A DNA stretch of 41,072 bases from Oscillospiraceae bacterium (lineage in GTDB: Bacteria; Bacillota; Clostridia; Oscillospirales; Oscillospiraceae). The stretch covers positions 1 to 41,072 of the forward strand of contig WQTE01000011.1 of the NCBI GenBank assembly GCA_009786445.1. Direction: 5' to 3'. The position numbers and the translations under genes were made by a program. Shown here one piece after another: positions 7,045 through 39,607 of this stretch (position 1 is its first letter; every line of letters starts with the position of its first letter). The notes under the pieces were generated by a model. It was not told the DNA's origin. It did no database searches and saw nothing but the letters and a program-made list of their open reading frames with translations.

Positions 7045-7173
7045 AAAAAGGGGCTGTTGCAAAATAAGCGGGCGGTCAATGACCGCCCCTACATATGCCT
7101 AATATTTGCATTTTTGATACGATATGATTGGGTGCGCATTGCGCATCCGCATGATTTGCAACAGCCCCTTTTT
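7045..7173 (-). terminator. Long composite stem-loop after csrA, terminator-like
   Basis: 19-bp perfect inverted repeat (AAAAAGGGGCTGTTGCAAA 7045-7063 / TTTGCAACAGCCCCTTTTT 7155-7173) enclosing two internal palindromes. The outer stem ends in a T tract in the csrA direction. It starts a few nt after the csrA stop. Confidence 0.75.
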
Positions 7174-9800: not shown

Positions 9801-9883
9801 GAGACGATGTTGGCACCGTCCCCTACGGTTATGCGGGAATACCCTTTGTGGGGGGCGGGATGCGCAAGGCGCATCCCCTACCC
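9801..9883. repeat. Two short palindromic repeats in the flgK-flgL gap
   Basis: GAGACGATGTTGGCACCGTCCCCTAC (9801-9826) and GGGATGCGC-AAG-GCGCATCCCCTACCC (9857-9883). Both end in CCCCTAC. Confidence 0.7.
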
Positions 9884-27019: not shown

Positions 27020-27043
27020 GGGACAACTGCCATCGTCCCTTAC
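27020..27043. repeat. Short palindromic repeat in the fliP-fliQ gap, abutting the fliP stop
   Basis: GGGACAACTGCCATCGTCCCTTAC; its TTA is the complement of the fliP TAA stop. Confidence 0.65.
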
Positions 27044-32176: not shown

Positions 32177-32592
32177 GCTAACTCCTCTCCAAGCTGTACC
32201 TGTCCCCTACTCATTGAACTGATTTCTTTCCACGCTTCTCTGATGTTGTCTACCATGTCAATGACAGCATCCAGCGGTTCGGCATCTTTTTTGGTATTTG
32301 CATGAACCAAACTGGTGAGAGCAAAGTCATACAAACTCATAAGTTCATTTGATATCTCGTAACTCATGTCAAGGCTGTTAATCAGCTCTGTGACAATCAT
32401 CTGTGCTTTGACAAGGTGCTTGTGGGCGAGTGTCACATCATGTTTTAGTATGCCGCGCTTACCGAGTACAATGTTTTTCTTCAGTGCATCATAGAGCATA
32501 ACAATCAGGTCAACAGGCCCGGCAGTCAGCACATCTTGTTTTTTATACGCATCCTGCGGACGCGTGTTTATCATTACCATTCCTTGCTGCAT
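32173..32592 (-). CDS. fliS: Flagellin export chaperone FliS
   Basis: DAYKKQDVLTAGPVDLIVMLYDALKKNIVLGKRGI...KAQMIVTELINSLDMSYEISNELMSLYDF. Confidence 0.95.
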   Translation of the reverse strand: MQQGMVMINTRPQDAYKKQDVLTAGPVDLIVMLYDALKKNIVLGKRGILKHDVTLAHKHLVKAQMIVTELINSLDMSYEISNELMSLYDFALTSLVHANTKKDAEPLDAVIDMVDNIREAWKEISSMSRGQVQLGEELA

Positions 32593-32631
32593 TTCTCTAA
32601 ACCACCCTTACTACTTAGCGATTCGGTTTTC

Positions 32632-32654
32632 GGGACGATTGTCATTGTCCCTTG
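32632..32654. repeat. Short palindromic repeat between fliD and fliS
   Basis: GGGACGATTGTCATTGTCCCTTG; closely resembles 27020-27043. Confidence 0.65.
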
Positions 32655-32659
32655 TATTA

Positions 32660-35107
32660 TCACATCGAGCCCAGCATTGAAGTGAACCATGCTCCTTGAT
32701 TTTGCATATTGGACATTGCTCCTTCCATTGCGGCAAACTGCCTGAAGAGCCTGTCTTCTTCTGCAAACATTCTAACCTGCATTCTTTCAATCTGCTCATT
32801 TGTTCGTCTGAGTGAATTTTCGAGGCTGGTCAGCGAGTCCGTCTGCATTCTTGTGAAGTCGTTGAAGCGTTCGTTAAGACGGTGTATTAAGCCGACACCT
32901 TCGTTTCTGCCTGTCTCCGGATTGACGTCGATTCTTGCGAAGATATCTGCCACCATTTCGGGATCTCTCTCAAGAGCTGCTCTGAGGCGCTCTTCGTCAA
33001 TCATGACTTGTCCGCCGGTTCCGTCTCTGTGTGTGCCTGTTGACAGACCTATTTGTGATGCAGATACCGGTCTGCCGTCTATTTGCATTCCTTCAATATT
33101 GTTGAAGAACTCTCTGCGTATGCCGAAAGCGAGCCTTTCAAGTGAGTTATCGTTTCTCATTATGCCGATCCTGGCGACTCTTTGCCACTCATCAACTTGC
33201 CGCTCTGTCATGCCTTGCTTTTCTTCGTCGGTCAGGGGTCTGTATGAGCGTTGTGCACGAGACTGTCTTTCGCTCGTAAGGGTTTCAAGCCTTGAGACAA
33301 GAGTGTTGTAGGCATCTATGAACGCTCTGATTGCATTGAACGCCTCATCTGTGTTGCGCTGAAAACTTACGTTTATAGGTTCCGGAGCCGGAGGCGGAAT
33401 TAGGTTTCCGGCTTCATCTTGAGTGTACTCACCTACAGTGGTGTGGTTAAGTGTAATGTCCAGACCGCGGAACTGGAATGTGTTGGTGTTTCGCTCAACG
33501 CGTTCGCCGTTGATGTATGCGACAGCCATGCTGCCTTCAGTAGTTTCGGCGGCAGCGCCCGTCAAGCCGAACAGGGAGAGCATATTTCCGCCTGCGCCGT
33601 CTGAGACAGAAAGACCGGTCGATATCATAATAGGGTCACCGCCGGCATCATACATGAGATTACCGTCATCATCGGTCTGCTGGACCGAATCTCCAAAGGT
33701 GCTTCCGACTGTATTTGACTCTATGGTGAATCTGTCGGTGAGTCTGTTGTAAGTCATTGTAACACCGAGGTTGCTTCTGTTGACTCTTTCCATCAAAGAG
33801 GTCATAGACTCCCTGCTGTCTACTGTGAAAGTCTGCGAACGACCATTATTGGAGACAGTAAACTCCGTGGTGAATCTTGGAAGATCGCCGCCGTTTGTGG
33901 CAGCACCGACACCTCCGGCAATGTTTGCTTGGCGCGATACTTCGATATCTGCGTAGATAAAGTTTCCGGCACCATCTGTGGCATATTCGTTGTTTTCATC
34001 AAGGGTTCTAACCTGAATTGTTGCAGTTTGTGTAAGTACCAAGCTATTAAGGTTTTGGTTAAACGGATTATTGGCACGCGGATGCGGGTCGTCGCCTTCC
34101 TCGGCCTCGGGGATGACTTCGACAAGCGACAAAGTGCCGTTGGCGTTTCTGTTAAGATCAAAAGTCATTCCGTCTGCCTCGAACCGTGCAAACGAAGCAG
34201 TACCTGATGTTACCTCACGAGGTATCATCCCAATCTGGGTACCGTTTAGAGTTATATTGCGGTCTCCGCTGTCATCAGCAGCAGGTACTACTGCAAGCAC
34301 AACACCATCGCCAAACTGGATAGAAATGGTTCCATCGTCTTGCCTTGTCACCTGTGGATTACCGGCAGCACCCGCATCCTGACCGGGGAGGGCAAATGAG
34401 CCGGTTGCGTCGCTCCATGAGCCGCCCGCAGCATTGTCCGGGTCGTTAAGGGCAGCCATGGCTCTTTCCCACTCAGACTGGCTTATATTTGCTGTTACAG
34501 GTACATCCTCGTATTCCATGACAGGGGTGTCGTCGGGATTAAACATGAGATTACCGTCCTCGTCACGCGCCTGTCGTGGTATTTGCACTGTTTGGGTCGT
34601 TTGTACCGATGTTGTGAAATTTATTCTGTTATCATTTCCGGGAAATCTTAATGCGCCTACTCCCGAAGCCGGGTTAAGACCTGCTCCGCCTACACCTGTC
34701 ACACTGTTACCGGAGCCAATTCTTGCGCCTTGCGCCAGAGACTCAATGCGGTCGATTCTCATAGAACCAACCGGAGTGTTTGTGCTTGTTCTGATTGATA
34801 CCGCACTTGAATTCGCTCCGTTGATGTTTGCTACCGTGGAGTTGAATGTGCGGCGGGACAACAGCGGGTTCATAGCGTTGGCTGACGCTGTCATGAAATT
34901 ACGCTGCAAGGCTGTAATTTCATCACGGATACTGTTGTGCGTTTCTTGACGCCACTGGAGTATCGTCCTGTCGCGTGTTCTGTTGTCAATTCTGAATTGA
35001 TGCATCCTGAGTGTTTGCTGGATAATCATATCCGTATCCATTCCGGATGCGAGACCCATCATTCTTATTGGGGAATGTCTGTTCATTGGGTTAATCATAA
35101 TTTTCAC
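32660..35107 (-). CDS. fliD: Flagellar hook-associated protein 2 (filament cap) FliD
   Basis: MMGLASGMDTDMIIQQTLRMHQFRIDNRTRDRTILQWRQETHNSIRDEI; FliD-C region FNAIRAFIDAYNTLVSRLETLTSERQ...; 815 aa. Confidence 0.95.
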   Translation of the reverse strand: MKIMINPMNRHSPIRMMGLASGMDTDMIIQQTLRMHQFRIDNRTRDRTILQWRQETHNSIRDEITALQRNFMTASANAMNPLLSRRTFNSTVANINGANSSAVSIRTSTNTPVGSMRIDRIESLAQGARIGSGNSVTGVGGAGLNPASGVGALRFPGNDNRINFTTSVQTTQTVQIPRQARDEDGNLMFNPDDTPVMEYEDVPVTANISQSEWERAMAALNDPDNAAGGSWSDATGSFALPGQDAGAAGNPQVTRQDDGTISIQFGDGVVLAVVPAADDSGDRNITLNGTQIGMIPREVTSGTASFARFEADGMTFDLNRNANGTLSLVEVIPEAEEGDDPHPRANNPFNQNLNSLVLTQTATIQVRTLDENNEYATDGAGNFIYADIEVSRQANIAGGVGAATNGGDLPRFTTEFTVSNNGRSQTFTVDSRESMTSLMERVNRSNLGVTMTYNRLTDRFTIESNTVGSTFGDSVQQTDDDGNLMYDAGGDPIMISTGLSVSDGAGGNMLSLFGLTGAAAETTEGSMAVAYINGERVERNTNTFQFRGLDITLNHTTVGEYTQDEAGNLIPPPAPEPINVSFQRNTDEAFNAIRAFIDAYNTLVSRLETLTSERQSRAQRSYRPLTDEEKQGMTERQVDEWQRVARIGIMRNDNSLERLAFGIRREFFNNIEGMQIDGRPVSASQIGLSTGTHRDGTGGQVMIDEERLRAALERDPEMVADIFARIDVNPETGRNEGVGLIHRLNERFNDFTRMQTDSLTSLENSLRRTNEQIERMQVRMFAEEDRLFRQFAAMEGAMSNMQNQGAWFTSMLGSM

Positions 35108-35210: not shown

Positions 35211-36527
35211 TTATATTTTTTTTCCGAATTTTATTAAAATTCCGTTCAGCGTGTCTGTGTCTGCATAAACTTGTCCCGACCATGAGCCGTATTCGTACTC
35301 AATTTCAGCGGTTGTTCCAAGTTGTGGTCCTGCATTTTTCCTTATTGTTTCAACAAGCCTGCTTATTATTGCATCAGCACTTCTTTTTCCGAGTTCCACA
35401 TACATTATGGCAAAAATCCCGTCCCCTGCATATGCAGGTACGTCTATCTCCCTAAGAGCATCTGAAATCGTCTTTGCCGCACTGCGCAGCAGCTCTGCCT
35501 GTCCGGTGTTTTTTTCGCCCCCGCTTTTTACCGACACTGCCGCAAATGTCATGGAGCCTCCGTACCTGCGCTGCCTGTAGAGTTCCCTTGATATTTGCTT
35601 TTTCATGCCATCCAGATTGAGCATATCAAACTCGGGGTGAAATCCTGCTTTATATTCTTCCCAGCGCTTTTCGACTTCGCTTTTTCTTTTTGATTCAAAG
35701 CGTTTGTCGAACGAGCGCGTGAGTTCTGTCACTTCCTTGTAACCGAGGAAAACTCCCCAGTTTCCATCTTCGTTTATAACAAGTTTATCTATGTCGCCTG
35801 ATTGTTTTTTGTTGTCAGTGTAGTCATCTTCCGTGACCATCACCCTGAATTTTCTCGCGTGGAACGATTTATCGCCGCCCCATGTTATGACAGCTACCGA
35901 AGAGCCTCCGGCTATTTGGAATTCCCGCATAGGATATAGCCTTGCAACGGATTCGCGCCATTTTATGAAAGCCTCAAGCGTTATGTTCTTTTTGTCATAT
36001 GCGCTTAAAAAGCCATATGATTTTTCGTAGTCAAACGAGTTTAGTGCCACAAAGTAATTGTGCAAAACTTCCCTCGCATCTTCTTCTGCTTCCTGACTGA
36101 CCGCTACTCTTTCGGCGGTTTTTTGTCTGTGCGCCTCCGCAGCTTGCGCTCTCGCATCTTGATGTGGCGAGGGTGACGTTTTTCTTTGCGGCTGCGGTGG
36201 GGGTTGCTGAGTATGCCTCGGCGGCGGAGGTTGCTGACTTTGTCTCGGCGGCGGCGGAGGCGGACTCTGCCGCGGCTCCCCTGCCGGGTATCTTTTTACG
36301 GGACGAGTGAACGTCTGACGGCTTCTAAAGCTCTCTTCGCGTTTAAATTTATCGCGTAGCACTGTGTAGGCGATGTTGATTTGCTTCATCAACTCTTCGG
36401 CTGCCGGGTCGTCGCTAATATCCGGGTGATATTCCCTGCAAAGCCTTCTGTATGACGAAGTGACATCGGCCATTCCGGCTCCGACTTTTACACCTAGCAC
36501 TCTATAGGATTCGAGTAAGTTGCCCAT
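35211..36527 (-). CDS. DnaJ-domain protein with Pro-rich linker, NTF2-like middle region and degenerate GGDEF-like C-terminus
   Basis: J domain SYRVLGVKVGAGMADVTSSYRRLCREYHPDISDDPAAEELMKQINIAYTVLRD (HPD present). C-terminal FDMLNLDGMKKQISRELYRQRRYGGSMTFAAVSV...AYAGDGIFAIMYVELGKRSADAIISRLVETIRK aligns by eye with GGDEF. Confidence 0.75.
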   Translation of the reverse strand: MGNLLESYRVLGVKVGAGMADVTSSYRRLCREYHPDISDDPAAEELMKQINIAYTVLRDKFKREESFRSRQTFTRPVKRYPAGEPRQSPPPPPPRQSQQPPPPRHTQQPPPQPQRKTSPSPHQDARAQAAEAHRQKTAERVAVSQEAEEDAREVLHNYFVALNSFDYEKSYGFLSAYDKKNITLEAFIKWRESVARLYPMREFQIAGGSSVAVITWGGDKSFHARKFRVMVTEDDYTDNKKQSGDIDKLVINEDGNWGVFLGYKEVTELTRSFDKRFESKRKSEVEKRWEEYKAGFHPEFDMLNLDGMKKQISRELYRQRRYGGSMTFAAVSVKSGGEKNTGQAELLRSAAKTISDALREIDVPAYAGDGIFAIMYVELGKRSADAIISRLVETIRKNAGPQLGTTAEIEYEYGSWSGQVYADTDTLNGILIKFGKKI

Positions 36528-36574
36528 CTTATCCCTCTGTTCCTTTATTTCTACCAGTATCATGAAACTAAATG

Positions 36575-36695: not shown

Positions 36696-37445
36696 TCACA
36701 GCACTATTCCTATGGGGCAGTGGTCGCTGCCGTATATTTTGGGTAGGATGAACGCATCTTTGACCGATTCGGTTAGTCTGTTTGAGCCTAAGAAATAATC
36801 TATGCGCCAGCCTACGTTTCGCTCTCTTACGCCCGCCATGTAGGACCACCATGTGTAGGCATCTGTTACATCGGGGTTCCTGTGCCTGAAGAAATCTGTG
36901 AAGCCGCTGCCTAGCAGTGCGGTCAGCTTTTCTCTTTCTTCTATGGTGAACCCTGCGTTTTTTTCGTTGCTTTTGGCATTTTTTATGTCTTTTTCCGTGT
37001 GGGCACAGTTTAGGTCGCCGCAGATTATTACCGGCTTGGTCTCATCCAGTTTTTTCACATACTTTCTGAAATCGTCCTCCCACTTCATTCTGTAGGAGAG
37101 GCGAGCCAACTCTCTTTGGGCATTCGGGGTGTAGACGTTTACAAGATAGAACCCCTCGTATTCCAGCGTTATCACTCTTCCCTCGCGGTCATGCTCGTCT
37201 ATACCCATGCCGTAAGTGTCACTCAGCGGCTCTACACGGGTGAATACCGCTGTGCCGGAGTAACCTTTTTTCTCGGCACTGTTCCAGTACTCTTTATAAC
37301 CGCTTAGGTCAATCTCTGCTTGACCTCGCTCCATCTTGGTTTCTTGCAGACAAAATATGTCTGCATCTATTTCCAAAAATGACTCCATAAAACCTTTTTT
37401 GAGGCAGGCTCGGAGTCCGTTTACATTCCATGATATTAATTTCAT
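36696..37445 (-). CDS. Exodeoxyribonuclease III / AP endonuclease
   Basis: MKLISWNVNGLRACLKKGFMESFLEIDADIFCLQETKME...ICGDLNCAHTEKDI...GWRIDYFLGSNRL...YGSDHCPIGIVL. Confidence 0.96.
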   Translation of the reverse strand: MKLISWNVNGLRACLKKGFMESFLEIDADIFCLQETKMERGQAEIDLSGYKEYWNSAEKKGYSGTAVFTRVEPLSDTYGMGIDEHDREGRVITLEYEGFYLVNVYTPNAQRELARLSYRMKWEDDFRKYVKKLDETKPVIICGDLNCAHTEKDIKNAKSNEKNAGFTIEEREKLTALLGSGFTDFFRHRNPDVTDAYTWWSYMAGVRERNVGWRIDYFLGSNRLTESVKDAFILPKIYGSDHCPIGIVL

Positions 37446-37747
37446 TATTTTGCAAGTCCTCTCCGCACTTTTTCTCCGTATGATTTATCCATTTCGCTGA
37501 CAAACGCAAGCACCTTTGCCACTGCATCATACATTTCGGGTGCAATCTCGTCTCCTACACTTATTTGCGATAACATATTTGTGAGTCCCGGCTCACGCAT
37601 TACCGGCACCCCTGATTCTTTCGCCACTTGAACGATTTTTTCCGCAAGATGCCCCTCACCGAATGCCGATAGTATCGGGACTTCATTTTCCGACGGGTCA
37701 TAACTTATAGCTGCCGCTCTTATTTTTTTGTTTGGATTTCCTGACAT
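37445..37747 (-). CDS. FlhB C-terminal-domain paralogue (FhlB/YlqH-like)
   Basis: AAAISYDPSENEVPILSAFGEGHLAEKIVQVAKESGVPVMREPGLTNMLSQISVGDEIAPEMYDAVAKVLAFV; no TM region and no NPTH motif. Confidence 0.88.
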   Translation of the reverse strand: MSGNPNKKIRAAAISYDPSENEVPILSAFGEGHLAEKIVQVAKESGVPVMREPGLTNMLSQISVGDEIAPEMYDAVAKVLAFVSEMDKSYGEKVRRGLAK

Positions 37748-37756
37748 TTGTTTGCC

Positions 37757-39607
37757 TCACCACTTTATGTCTATGCCGGTCTGTTTTTTGCCTTGATAGC
37801 GATCCAGTGCTGTTAGTGCGTTTAGGGGGGTTGTCTCTTCTTTGAAAAGTTTGATATTTGTGGCTACAAGCCTGAATCCATCCTCATCAAGCAGCCGGTG
37901 AAGCAAGACTGTGTTTTCGCCGAAGTGCTTTTTCTCCGTTTCTCCACGCACTTCCATGTTTAGGGTTACATCTTTACCCTTTATATTGAGCAATGCTTCC
38001 CAGCGACCCATGAACTCTAAATCTATAGCCATAAGAATATTAACATTTTCTGAGTCGGCTTGTCTACGCCCTTTTCTTTTGAAAATGTATAATTCTGCTG
38101 ATTTTCGCTGATCATTTTGCGAAACAGGCATCTGCATGTATACAAATTGTTCGATGTTGTTGAGTGTCCTCACATGATCCATCAGTCTGTGTGTCTGGCT
38201 CAGCAGCTCTGTTTTTGTATTCTGGTTTGAGCTTGAAACCGCCTCTTCAAGCATCGCAAGTCTTGCAAAGAGTTCTTCTCTGGCATGACGAAGCTCCGTT
38301 CCTGCATTTGCGCCGCCTGCATCAATTTTTGTAAACAGCTTTTCTATCTGTGCCTCCAGTGTTTCGCCATCCGCTGCTCCCACCGTGTCTCCGGCGACTC
38401 GCAAGAGCATTTCGGAAAACCGCTCAAGTGCTGAATGCGGAGTGCCGCTGAACTCGGGAACCTGTGATAAAAGTTGTACTACCATGCTCCTGAGACCTGA
38501 TTCAGGGTTTTGGGATAACGGCGAACCGGGACTGGCAAGCCCATCCCCCACGGGCGGCTCGGCAGCGAGTGGGGTTGCAGCTTGCGGTACGTCCGGACGG
38601 GCGAATCCGTCCCCAAGGGGCGTAGGCATGGTTGCAGTTTGCACATTCGCGGGACGAGCGAGCCCGTCTCCTATGGCAGGCTCGCCGGTTGGCATATTAT
38701 TTGAGAAATTTTCGCCGATTAAAGTCCCGGGCAAAGTAGATGCTTGTGTCCCCTGCAACACTTGCGGTTGCTGGGTTTGCGCCGTGCCTTGCTGTGTTGC
38801 GATTTCACTATTATTCCCTACTTGTGATAAATTTTCTGCAACATTTATCACATTTGTTTGCATATTACCTTCGCTTTGTGTTATAATACCTTGACTGCCT
38901 GATGAGGGTGCTTGATTAAGGTGATTTAAAGCCTCCATCAGACTCGACGAATTCTTTACAATAGCAGCGAGAAGGTTAGTTAAAGGTGCTGTATTTTGAG
39001 TTTGTGTTGCCTCCGGGTTTGCTATGCTCGGCTCCCCCATTGACGAAATGAGCTTTGCTATCAGCGCATCAGTTTTTTCTCCGCTTGCGAGCATTCGCAA
39101 AGCCGCTTGCATTATATCCGGGTCGTCTGTCAGTTTGTTCGACACCAGAAATGCCGCCTCGTCAAGTGTAAGTTTTGGATTTAGTGCCATCAAATCTCTC
39201 ATAAGCGCAGCAGATTTTTCATTGACAGGCATACCAAGTTCCGACAATTTACTCGCATAAGGTGCAAGGCTCTTATCTGAAAACTCTCTTACTATACTTC
39301 TCTCGGCGAGTGATAAGTCATCTTCCGCAGTTTCCGCGGAACTAAAAGATAAAGAAATCCGGTCATTGTCTTTCTCCATTACTTCAAGTACCAGCGCATC
39401 TCCCACAGATAACCTCAAACCGGTATCCAGTTTCGCGCTGAAGCTATGACCGTTTTCCATTTTAAGCGTAAGCATACCGCTTTTGTCTCTTGAGACAACC
39501 TCCGCTCTGAGCACATCGCCTTTTCTTAGGGAGTCAAGCCCTGAACCTGTACCCGCTTTTAATTTTATACCTCCCGTGGCAAGGAGTTGCGATGTATCTA
39601 CCCTCAT
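37757..39607 (-). CDS. fliK: FliK-like flagellar hook-length control protein
   Basis: 616 aa; FliK C-terminal-type domain FVYMQMPVSQNDQRKSAELYIFKRKGRR...ILMAIDLEFMGRWEALLNIKGKDVTLNMEV and Gln/Pro-rich central linker. Confidence 0.75.
   Translation of the reverse strand: MRVDTSQLLATGGIKLKAGTGSGLDSLRKGDVLRAEVVSRDKSGMLTLKMENGHSFSAKLDTGLRLSVGDALVLEVMEKDNDRISLSFSSAETAEDDLSLAERSIVREFSDKSLAPYASKLSELGMPVNEKSAALMRDLMALNPKLTLDEAAFLVSNKLTDDPDIMQAALRMLASGEKTDALIAKLISSMGEPSIANPEATQTQNTAPLTNLLAAIVKNSSSLMEALNHLNQAPSSGSQGIITQSEGNMQTNVINVAENLSQVGNNSEIATQQGTAQTQQPQVLQGTQASTLPGTLIGENFSNNMPTGEPAIGDGLARPANVQTATMPTPLGDGFARPDVPQAATPLAAEPPVGDGLASPGSPLSQNPESGLRSMVVQLLSQVPEFSGTPHSALERFSEMLLRVAGDTVGAADGETLEAQIEKLFTKIDAGGANAGTELRHAREELFARLAMLEEAVSSSNQNTKTELLSQTHRLMDHVRTLNNIEQFVYMQMPVSQNDQRKSAELYIFKRKGRRQADSENVNILMAIDLEFMGRWEALLNIKGKDVTLNMEVRGETEKKHFGENTVLLHRLLDEDGFRLVATNIKLFKEETTPLNALTALDRYQGKKQTGIDIKW
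38527..38690 (-). repeat. Three in-frame diverged palindromic repeats inside fliK, encoding GDG[LF]A[RS]P
   Basis: Plus strand GGGACTGGCAAGCCCATCCCCCACGGGCGG, CGGACGGGCGAATCCGTCCCCAAGGGGCGT and GGGACGAGCGAGCCCGTCTCCTATGGCAGG; translate on minus as VGDGLASPG, LGDGFARPD, IGDGLARPA. Confidence 0.75.

Follow-up and report, generated by a model that had tools for sequence, protein, structure and literature searches.

The linker of the flagellar protein FliK in this Oscillospiraceae bacterium contains three copies of a palindrome that belongs to a dispersed, GTAG-tagged family with the consensus GTAG+GGGACGGGCTTGCCCGTCCC. We assign a probability of roughly 0.8 to the overall reading, in which the genome harbours low-copy GTAG palindromes of the REP type, one of them inserted in frame into fliK, and this copy was tripled locally and kept as protein. 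The window, that is the whole 41,072-nt stretch of DNA analysed, contains the following features at the fliK locus.

37757..39607, minus strand: fliK ORF of 616 aa, with an N-terminal part, a hypervariable linker and a conserved C-terminal FliK domain
37445-37747: FlhB-like Bac_export_2 C-terminus, adjoining the fliK ORF
38430..38880, minus strand: hypervariable Gln/Pro/Thr-rich FliK linker holding the three repeats, from an alignment of 15 orthologues
38651..38674, minus strand: copy A (R3), ATAG+GAGACGGGCTCGCTCGTCCC, encoding IGDGLARP; 27.9 bits
38594..38617, minus strand: copy B (R2), CTTGGGGACGGATTCGCCCGTCCG, encoding LGDGFARP, the most degenerate; 13.2 bits
38528..38551, minus strand: copy C (R1), coding strand GTGG+GGGATGGGCTTGCCAGTCCC, encoding VGDGLASP; 28.5 bits

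The window protein itself has no significant match in Pfam or NCBIfam, and a PDB profile search with it gave no match; its identity as FliK comes from the aligned family, five of six members of which match PF02120 Flg_hook (FliK), with a best E value of 4e-7. Across the 15 aligned orthologues, conservation is lowest in the linker, which precedes the conserved C-terminal domain and tolerates insertions in several species. The original prediction had described three repeats in one frame, encoding GDGLARP-like peptides in a Gln/Pro-rich linker, and this holds at all three positions. On the coding strand, copies A, B and C read ATAGGAGACGGGCTCGCTCGTCCC, CTTGGGGACGGATTCGCCCGTCCG and GTGGGGGATGGGCTTGCCAGTCCC in full; they are spaced by 57 nt (A to B) and 66 nt (B to C), share a single frame, and give VGDGLARP-like peptides.

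Their predicted kinship with the intergenic palindromes of the window was borne out by scoring. With a matrix built from eight other family copies, the fliK copies being left out, copies C and A reached 28.5 and 27.9 bits, compared with a top score of 15.3 bits on both strands of a Markov-1 genome of equal size. A matrix from the non-coding copies alone gave 29.2 bits for copy C, 26.4 for copy A and 14.3 for copy B, and with it the top score in 20 codon-shuffled gene sets was 23.9 bits. The score of copy B is insignificant genome-wide by itself, and its membership rests on its place between A and C and on the homology of its flanks. The terminal tags are GTGG (C), ATAG (A) and CTTG (B), the last lying outside the GTAG/GYRG/GTGG pattern. 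Taken by majority, the three copies give GGGGACGGGCTCGCCCGTCCC, which differs from the family consensus at one of 21 bases.

The host genome (G000) is a metagenome-assembled genome of 2.72 Mb in 201 contigs, 90% complete, of which 1.98 Mb were scanned, with genes called by a simple hexamer-based finder. The best PDB matches of its RpoB are to polymerases that we take to be from clostridia and other Bacillota; a search for Spo0A gave no match, and RecA did not help to place the lineage. Family copies consist of GTAG, a stem opening with GGG, a short loop and a stem closing with CCC. The tail CTAC, which is GTAG on the opposite strand, follows 17 of 156 GGG...CCC hairpins; the second-commonest tail occurs 6 times, mostly as one repeat in reverse reading. 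Stem subfamilies include GGGACGGGC/GCCCGTCCC, GGGACGAT/ATCGTCCC, GGGCGATTA/TAATCGCCC, GGGCGGTCA/TGACCGCCC and GGGATGCGC/GCGCATCCC. The core GACGGGCWWGCCCGTC, allowing up to two mismatches, was found at 13 sites, versus one for the reversed control, and the fliK-type subfamily has roughly 15-25 copies. A genome scan with the model from other copies found the family well beyond fliK, as predicted: strong matches are mostly non-coding or at gene ends, while 92% of the scanned sequence is coding, and some lie in frame in other genes. For the 24-nt consensus the folding energy is -15.7 kcal/mol (z -3.2); this gives the stem-loop, formed by a palindrome of 20-40 nt, by which the GTAG REP superfamily is recognized, together with an unpaired tag at one end only and multiple dispersed, chiefly intergenic copies. 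An Rfam search of the window gave no match. Two candidate copies, C15:22737 and C34:19623, were dropped for weak score or context.

Outside fliK, the window contains five hairpins of this layout.

9801..9828, minus strand: GTAG+GGGACGGTGCCAACATCGTCTC, non-coding family copy between flgK and flgL; hairpin z -2.2
9857..9881, minus strand: GTAG+GGGATGCGCCTTGCGCATCCC, same design with another stem; the copy at 9801..9828 is about 30 nt away
27020..27043, minus strand: GTAA variant of the GGGACGATTGCCATCGTCCC subfamily at a gene junction; 37.2 bits (itself a matrix seed)
32632..32655, minus strand: diverged copy of the GGGACGATTGCCATCGTCCC subfamily at a gene junction; 22.1 bits
7070..7092, minus strand: GTAG+GGGCGGTCATTGACCGCCC hairpin inside an inverted-repeat-bounded element (about 130 nt)

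The copy at 9801-9828, cited as an example in the original prediction, is a genuine family member with GTAG and hairpin. It lies within an ORF extension 5' of the likely flgL start, the FlgL model beginning at ORF residue 36. The final 4 nt of the gene upstream fall within the copy at 27020..27043, which reads TAA at this point; elsewhere in the genome, at C68:11432 and C74:798, the GTAG/GTAA end of family copies likewise overlaps the preceding gene's stop codon. Stop codons supplied by GTAG termini are already documented in PMC3733652. A putative gene at 32574-32690 was dropped as a spurious ORF. The element at 7045-7173 is MITE-like and about 130 nt long; its GTAG hairpin is flanked by AAAAAGGGGCTGTTGCAAA...TTTGCAACAGCCCCTTTTT, an inverted repeat that is long but imperfect, and near-identical copies of its hairpin and flanks are present on contigs C9, C14, C15 and C54. 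Separately, a 27-nt direct repeat lies at 36187-36240, within a DnaJ-domain gene (35211-36563).

Three further genes carry the palindrome in frame: polA (C54; GGAAAGGGCAAGCCCGTCCCCTGC, read as GKGKPVPC, 32.9 bits), an ABC transporter gene (C19; GTAGGGGACGATGGCAATCTTCCC, VGDDGNLP, 41.9 bits, a matrix seed), and the gene for a CPBP-type membrane protein, so labelled by eye from its sequence without a database match (C16; ACAGAGGACGGGCTTGTCCGTCCC, TEDGLVRP, 36.9 bits, a matrix seed). With matrices from which they were left out, they scored 32.8, 39.2 and 31.5 bits, the codon-shuffle maxima being 23.9 and 22.9. A frame-blind hairpin scan added a protein that is kinase-like by motif only, with no Pfam match (VGAITNRP), an amino acid permease (VGATVPGRP), and an E2 acyltransferase with the hairpin in the linker between two domains (RAAEDGRPY). 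These three rest on hairpin and tag, and some could have arisen by chance, since scans with other tetranucleotides gave 1-10 matches each. The phase GTA/GGG is used in five of the seven coding loci. One of the six frames of the consensus contains a stop and five are open; the chance that five of seven loci share any one frame is about 0.02 by a binomial estimate.

We then compared relatives, with one genome per species and G010 as the closest relative sampled. In polA, G010 (78% identical) reads FFDSVAVALNTGLYLLTR and G000 reads FFDSVAVALPASHDNTGDNCDTGKGKPVPCEGAVYSLTR; at the protein level, FFDSVAVAL is joined directly to NTGLYLLTR in G010, and G000 has about 21 additional residues there, including the palindrome. 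This is a variable loop in which some congeners have unrelated residues, and the GKGKPVPC segment is in no other aligned congener. In FliK, G010 reads TPLTAEPPT followed directly by LANMV, versus TPLAAEPPV, 18 aa and LRSMV in G000, and the 18-aa gap opens exactly at the GDGLASP of copy C. No fliK orthologue scores above 9.3 bits with the palindrome matrix. The core GACGGGCWWGCCCGTC is present exactly at two sites elsewhere in the G010 genome and at many variant sites in G014, with most other species near controls; the looser pattern GTAGGGGN{8,22}CCCC was discarded, its controls equalling the signal in several species. The ABC transporter (L220) also has an insertion at this site in G010, containing GTAG and an in-frame GTAGGGGACGCACACCAGGGCGTCCC hairpin (GGGACGC...GCGTCCC) that reads VGDAHQGVP; it is absent from paralogues and other species. 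Because G010 has the same insertion site, this event is older, and the two versions suggest an old insertion that has been changing ever since. At the CPBP site G010 aligns at equal length and so leaves no clean gap, and orthologues of the permease differ in length by +7 and -5 residues, with near-equal length across the site in G010. Judged from these alignments, clean absence in relatives is thus confined to polA and one fliK copy.

Events of a similar kind are apparent in the FliK linkers of sister species. In G007 and G008 (L012, L013), segments of the HPPSADGTLFTKEGE type are encoded by GCCGTCTGCGGACGGC and ACCCTCTTTACTAAAGAGGG or close variants. The in-frame segment with the palindromes GCCGTCTGCGGACGGC and CCCTCTTTACTAAAGAGGG is duplicated in G007; in the linker of G008, CCCTCTTTACTAAAGAGGG is present in a diverged form. 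Forward and reverse matches to CCCTCTTTACTAAAGAGGG number 72/63 in G007, 15/16 in G008, 22/22 in G010 and 3/3 in G000, with 0 for the control in all four, and one copy (G007:C157:757-775) falls within the fliK match. As far as the linker sequences tell, two unrelated palindromes have reached the FliK linker, in different species. The linker of G009 (L010) has a 45-nt tandem repeat (QGDGSSVLQGATAPG); its copies are almost identical and so it appears to be recently expanded.

Do the three fliK copies stem from one insertion or from three? Among six comparisons of their flanks, with nominal p values, A and B are alike downstream (p 0.0025), B and C are alike upstream (p 0.007), A and B are weakly alike upstream (p 0.027), and the remaining three are not significant. 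Since neighbouring copies share flanks, the triplet probably derives from a single insertion, after which a unit of about 57-66 nt was duplicated locally. Three independent insertions into the linker are unlikely: besides the common flanks, the 57- and 66-nt spacing and the threefold identity of frame and orientation argue against them, although the linker takes insertions in several species and the ABC transporter site in G000 has more than one palindrome-like segment (VGDGILDP, then VGDDGNLP). Local duplication had been offered in the original prediction as the alternative to a mobile element, for a coding unit palindromic by coincidence. The duplication is supported by the shared flanks (p ~0.0025-0.027), but the units also match the dispersed family. 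One could still suppose that an ancestral GDG linker motif of the genus was duplicated locally, and that its likeness to the palindrome is due to chance or to GC-rich codon use. The similar flanks, the tandem repeat of G009 and a single QGDGSVVQ in G007/G008 (GGGGACGG at the DNA level) would fit such an origin. However, palindrome-matrix maxima in fliK are 5.2 bits in G009, 4.2 in G007 and -1.7 in G008, versus 28.8 here; the 13 bases past GGGGACGG also fit the family, with the majority sequence agreeing at 12 of them; codon-shuffled genes stay below the score, and the same segment is found in unrelated genes. We therefore consider this origin quite improbable, more so than three separate insertions. 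The non-palindromic QGDGS in the sister linker may nevertheless mean that a GDG peptide was there before the palindrome.

The last alternative is that the hairpin is kept for a function in fliK mRNA or DNA, such as translation pausing, transcript stability or supercoiling. REP hairpins are reported to be active at the RNA and DNA level (PMC3733652), but the fliK hairpins are no more stable than shuffles (z -0.6, -0.3 and +0.7, compared with -2.2 for the copy at 9801 and -3.2 for the consensus). Codon changes from the consensus in the fliK copies are synonymous in 7 of 11 cases, versus about 31% expected (one-sided p ~0.02, a binomial estimate from small numbers that ignores shared ancestry), the opposite of compensatory stem changes. 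This explanation is the least credible of the three. Since the hairpins have decayed and the codon changes are chiefly synonymous, the data fit a segment maintained as peptide rather than as hairpin.

The sequence of events that we favour, insertion and then duplication, would be as follows. REP-type palindromes with the GTAG tag (5'-GTAG-GGGACGGGCTTGCCCGTCCC-3' and its sister stems) would spread as small non-autonomous elements, presumably by transposition and possibly mobilized by a RAYT-type transposase. Surviving copies lie chiefly outside coding sequence; a few entered loops or linkers in frame, and there the GTA/GGG/GAC phase yields the soluble, stop-free VGDGLARP. One copy would have entered the fliK linker, most simply after the split from the closest sampled relative, been tripled by local duplication, and persisted as protein, perhaps near-neutral or mildly conserved in function, while its hairpin decayed. 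Counting against this reading are a copy number low for REPs, the weakness of copy B by itself, the CPBP and permease sites with their near-equal lengths in G010, the older ABC transporter insertion, and the Y1 transposase family PF01797, which was not found in G000 (90% complete) nor in G010. In the same-genus species G001, G003, G005, G009 and G011, PF01797 matches exceed the cut-off or nearly reach it.

The original prediction likened the fliK repeats to Rickettsia palindromic elements (RPEs). The likeness holds for behaviour, as dispersed palindromes lie in frame in unrelated, unbroken proteins (FliK, PolA, the ABC transporter and the CPBP-type protein). RPE membership itself is rejected: RPE-4/6 have a CGTC tag and RPE-1 is a longer element (PMC3733652), whereas here the tag is GTAG and the unit about 24 nt; no sequence relation was seen, and the host is not a Rickettsia. 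The closer relationship is to the GTAG REP superfamily, whose in-frame copies, DNA polymerase I being one of the host proteins, have been on record since 2013 (Di Nocera et al., PMC3733652). Traits shared with the repeats of that survey are a short stem-loop, at one end of which GTAG is unpaired, degeneration of the GTGG type, several subfamilies of stem per genome, mainly intergenic location, a terminus that often supplies a TAG stop, and in-frame copies including DNA polymerase I. The superfamily's families there often have 20-100+ copies, compared with roughly 15-25 here, and association with RAYTs is reported for many, not all, of them. In RAYT/TnpA-REP systems, GTAG plus hairpin, the layout seen here, is the one proposed for the transposase substrate (PMC2817692, PMC8266576); unlike them, this genome yielded no PF01797 protein. 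The available text of the 2013 survey describes no local multiplication in a flagellar linker, and it records GTAG repeats in Proteobacteria, Cyanobacteria, Chloroflexi and the PVC group; Bacillota, to which RpoB assigns this lineage, is not among the phyla it lists. A 2025 survey reports REP-like sequences in Bacillota under a looser definition (PMC12306157).

The present family is thus a new member of the in-frame REP phenomenon, which it extends to a lineage beyond the list of the 2013 survey. Within one genus, a consensus, non-coding and in-frame copies, an insert-free relative and hairpin decay together document how a mobile hairpin may turn into protein sequence. The finding also opens the question of whether insertion of a palindrome alters a molecular ruler, FliK; in Salmonella, export switching is impaired when the FliK linker is made 40 residues longer (PMC6972891). 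It is conceivable, if rather doubtful, that the FliK linker repeatedly takes up dispersed palindromes across the genus; together with duplication, such insertions could alter linker length and thereby hook-length control or the export switch.
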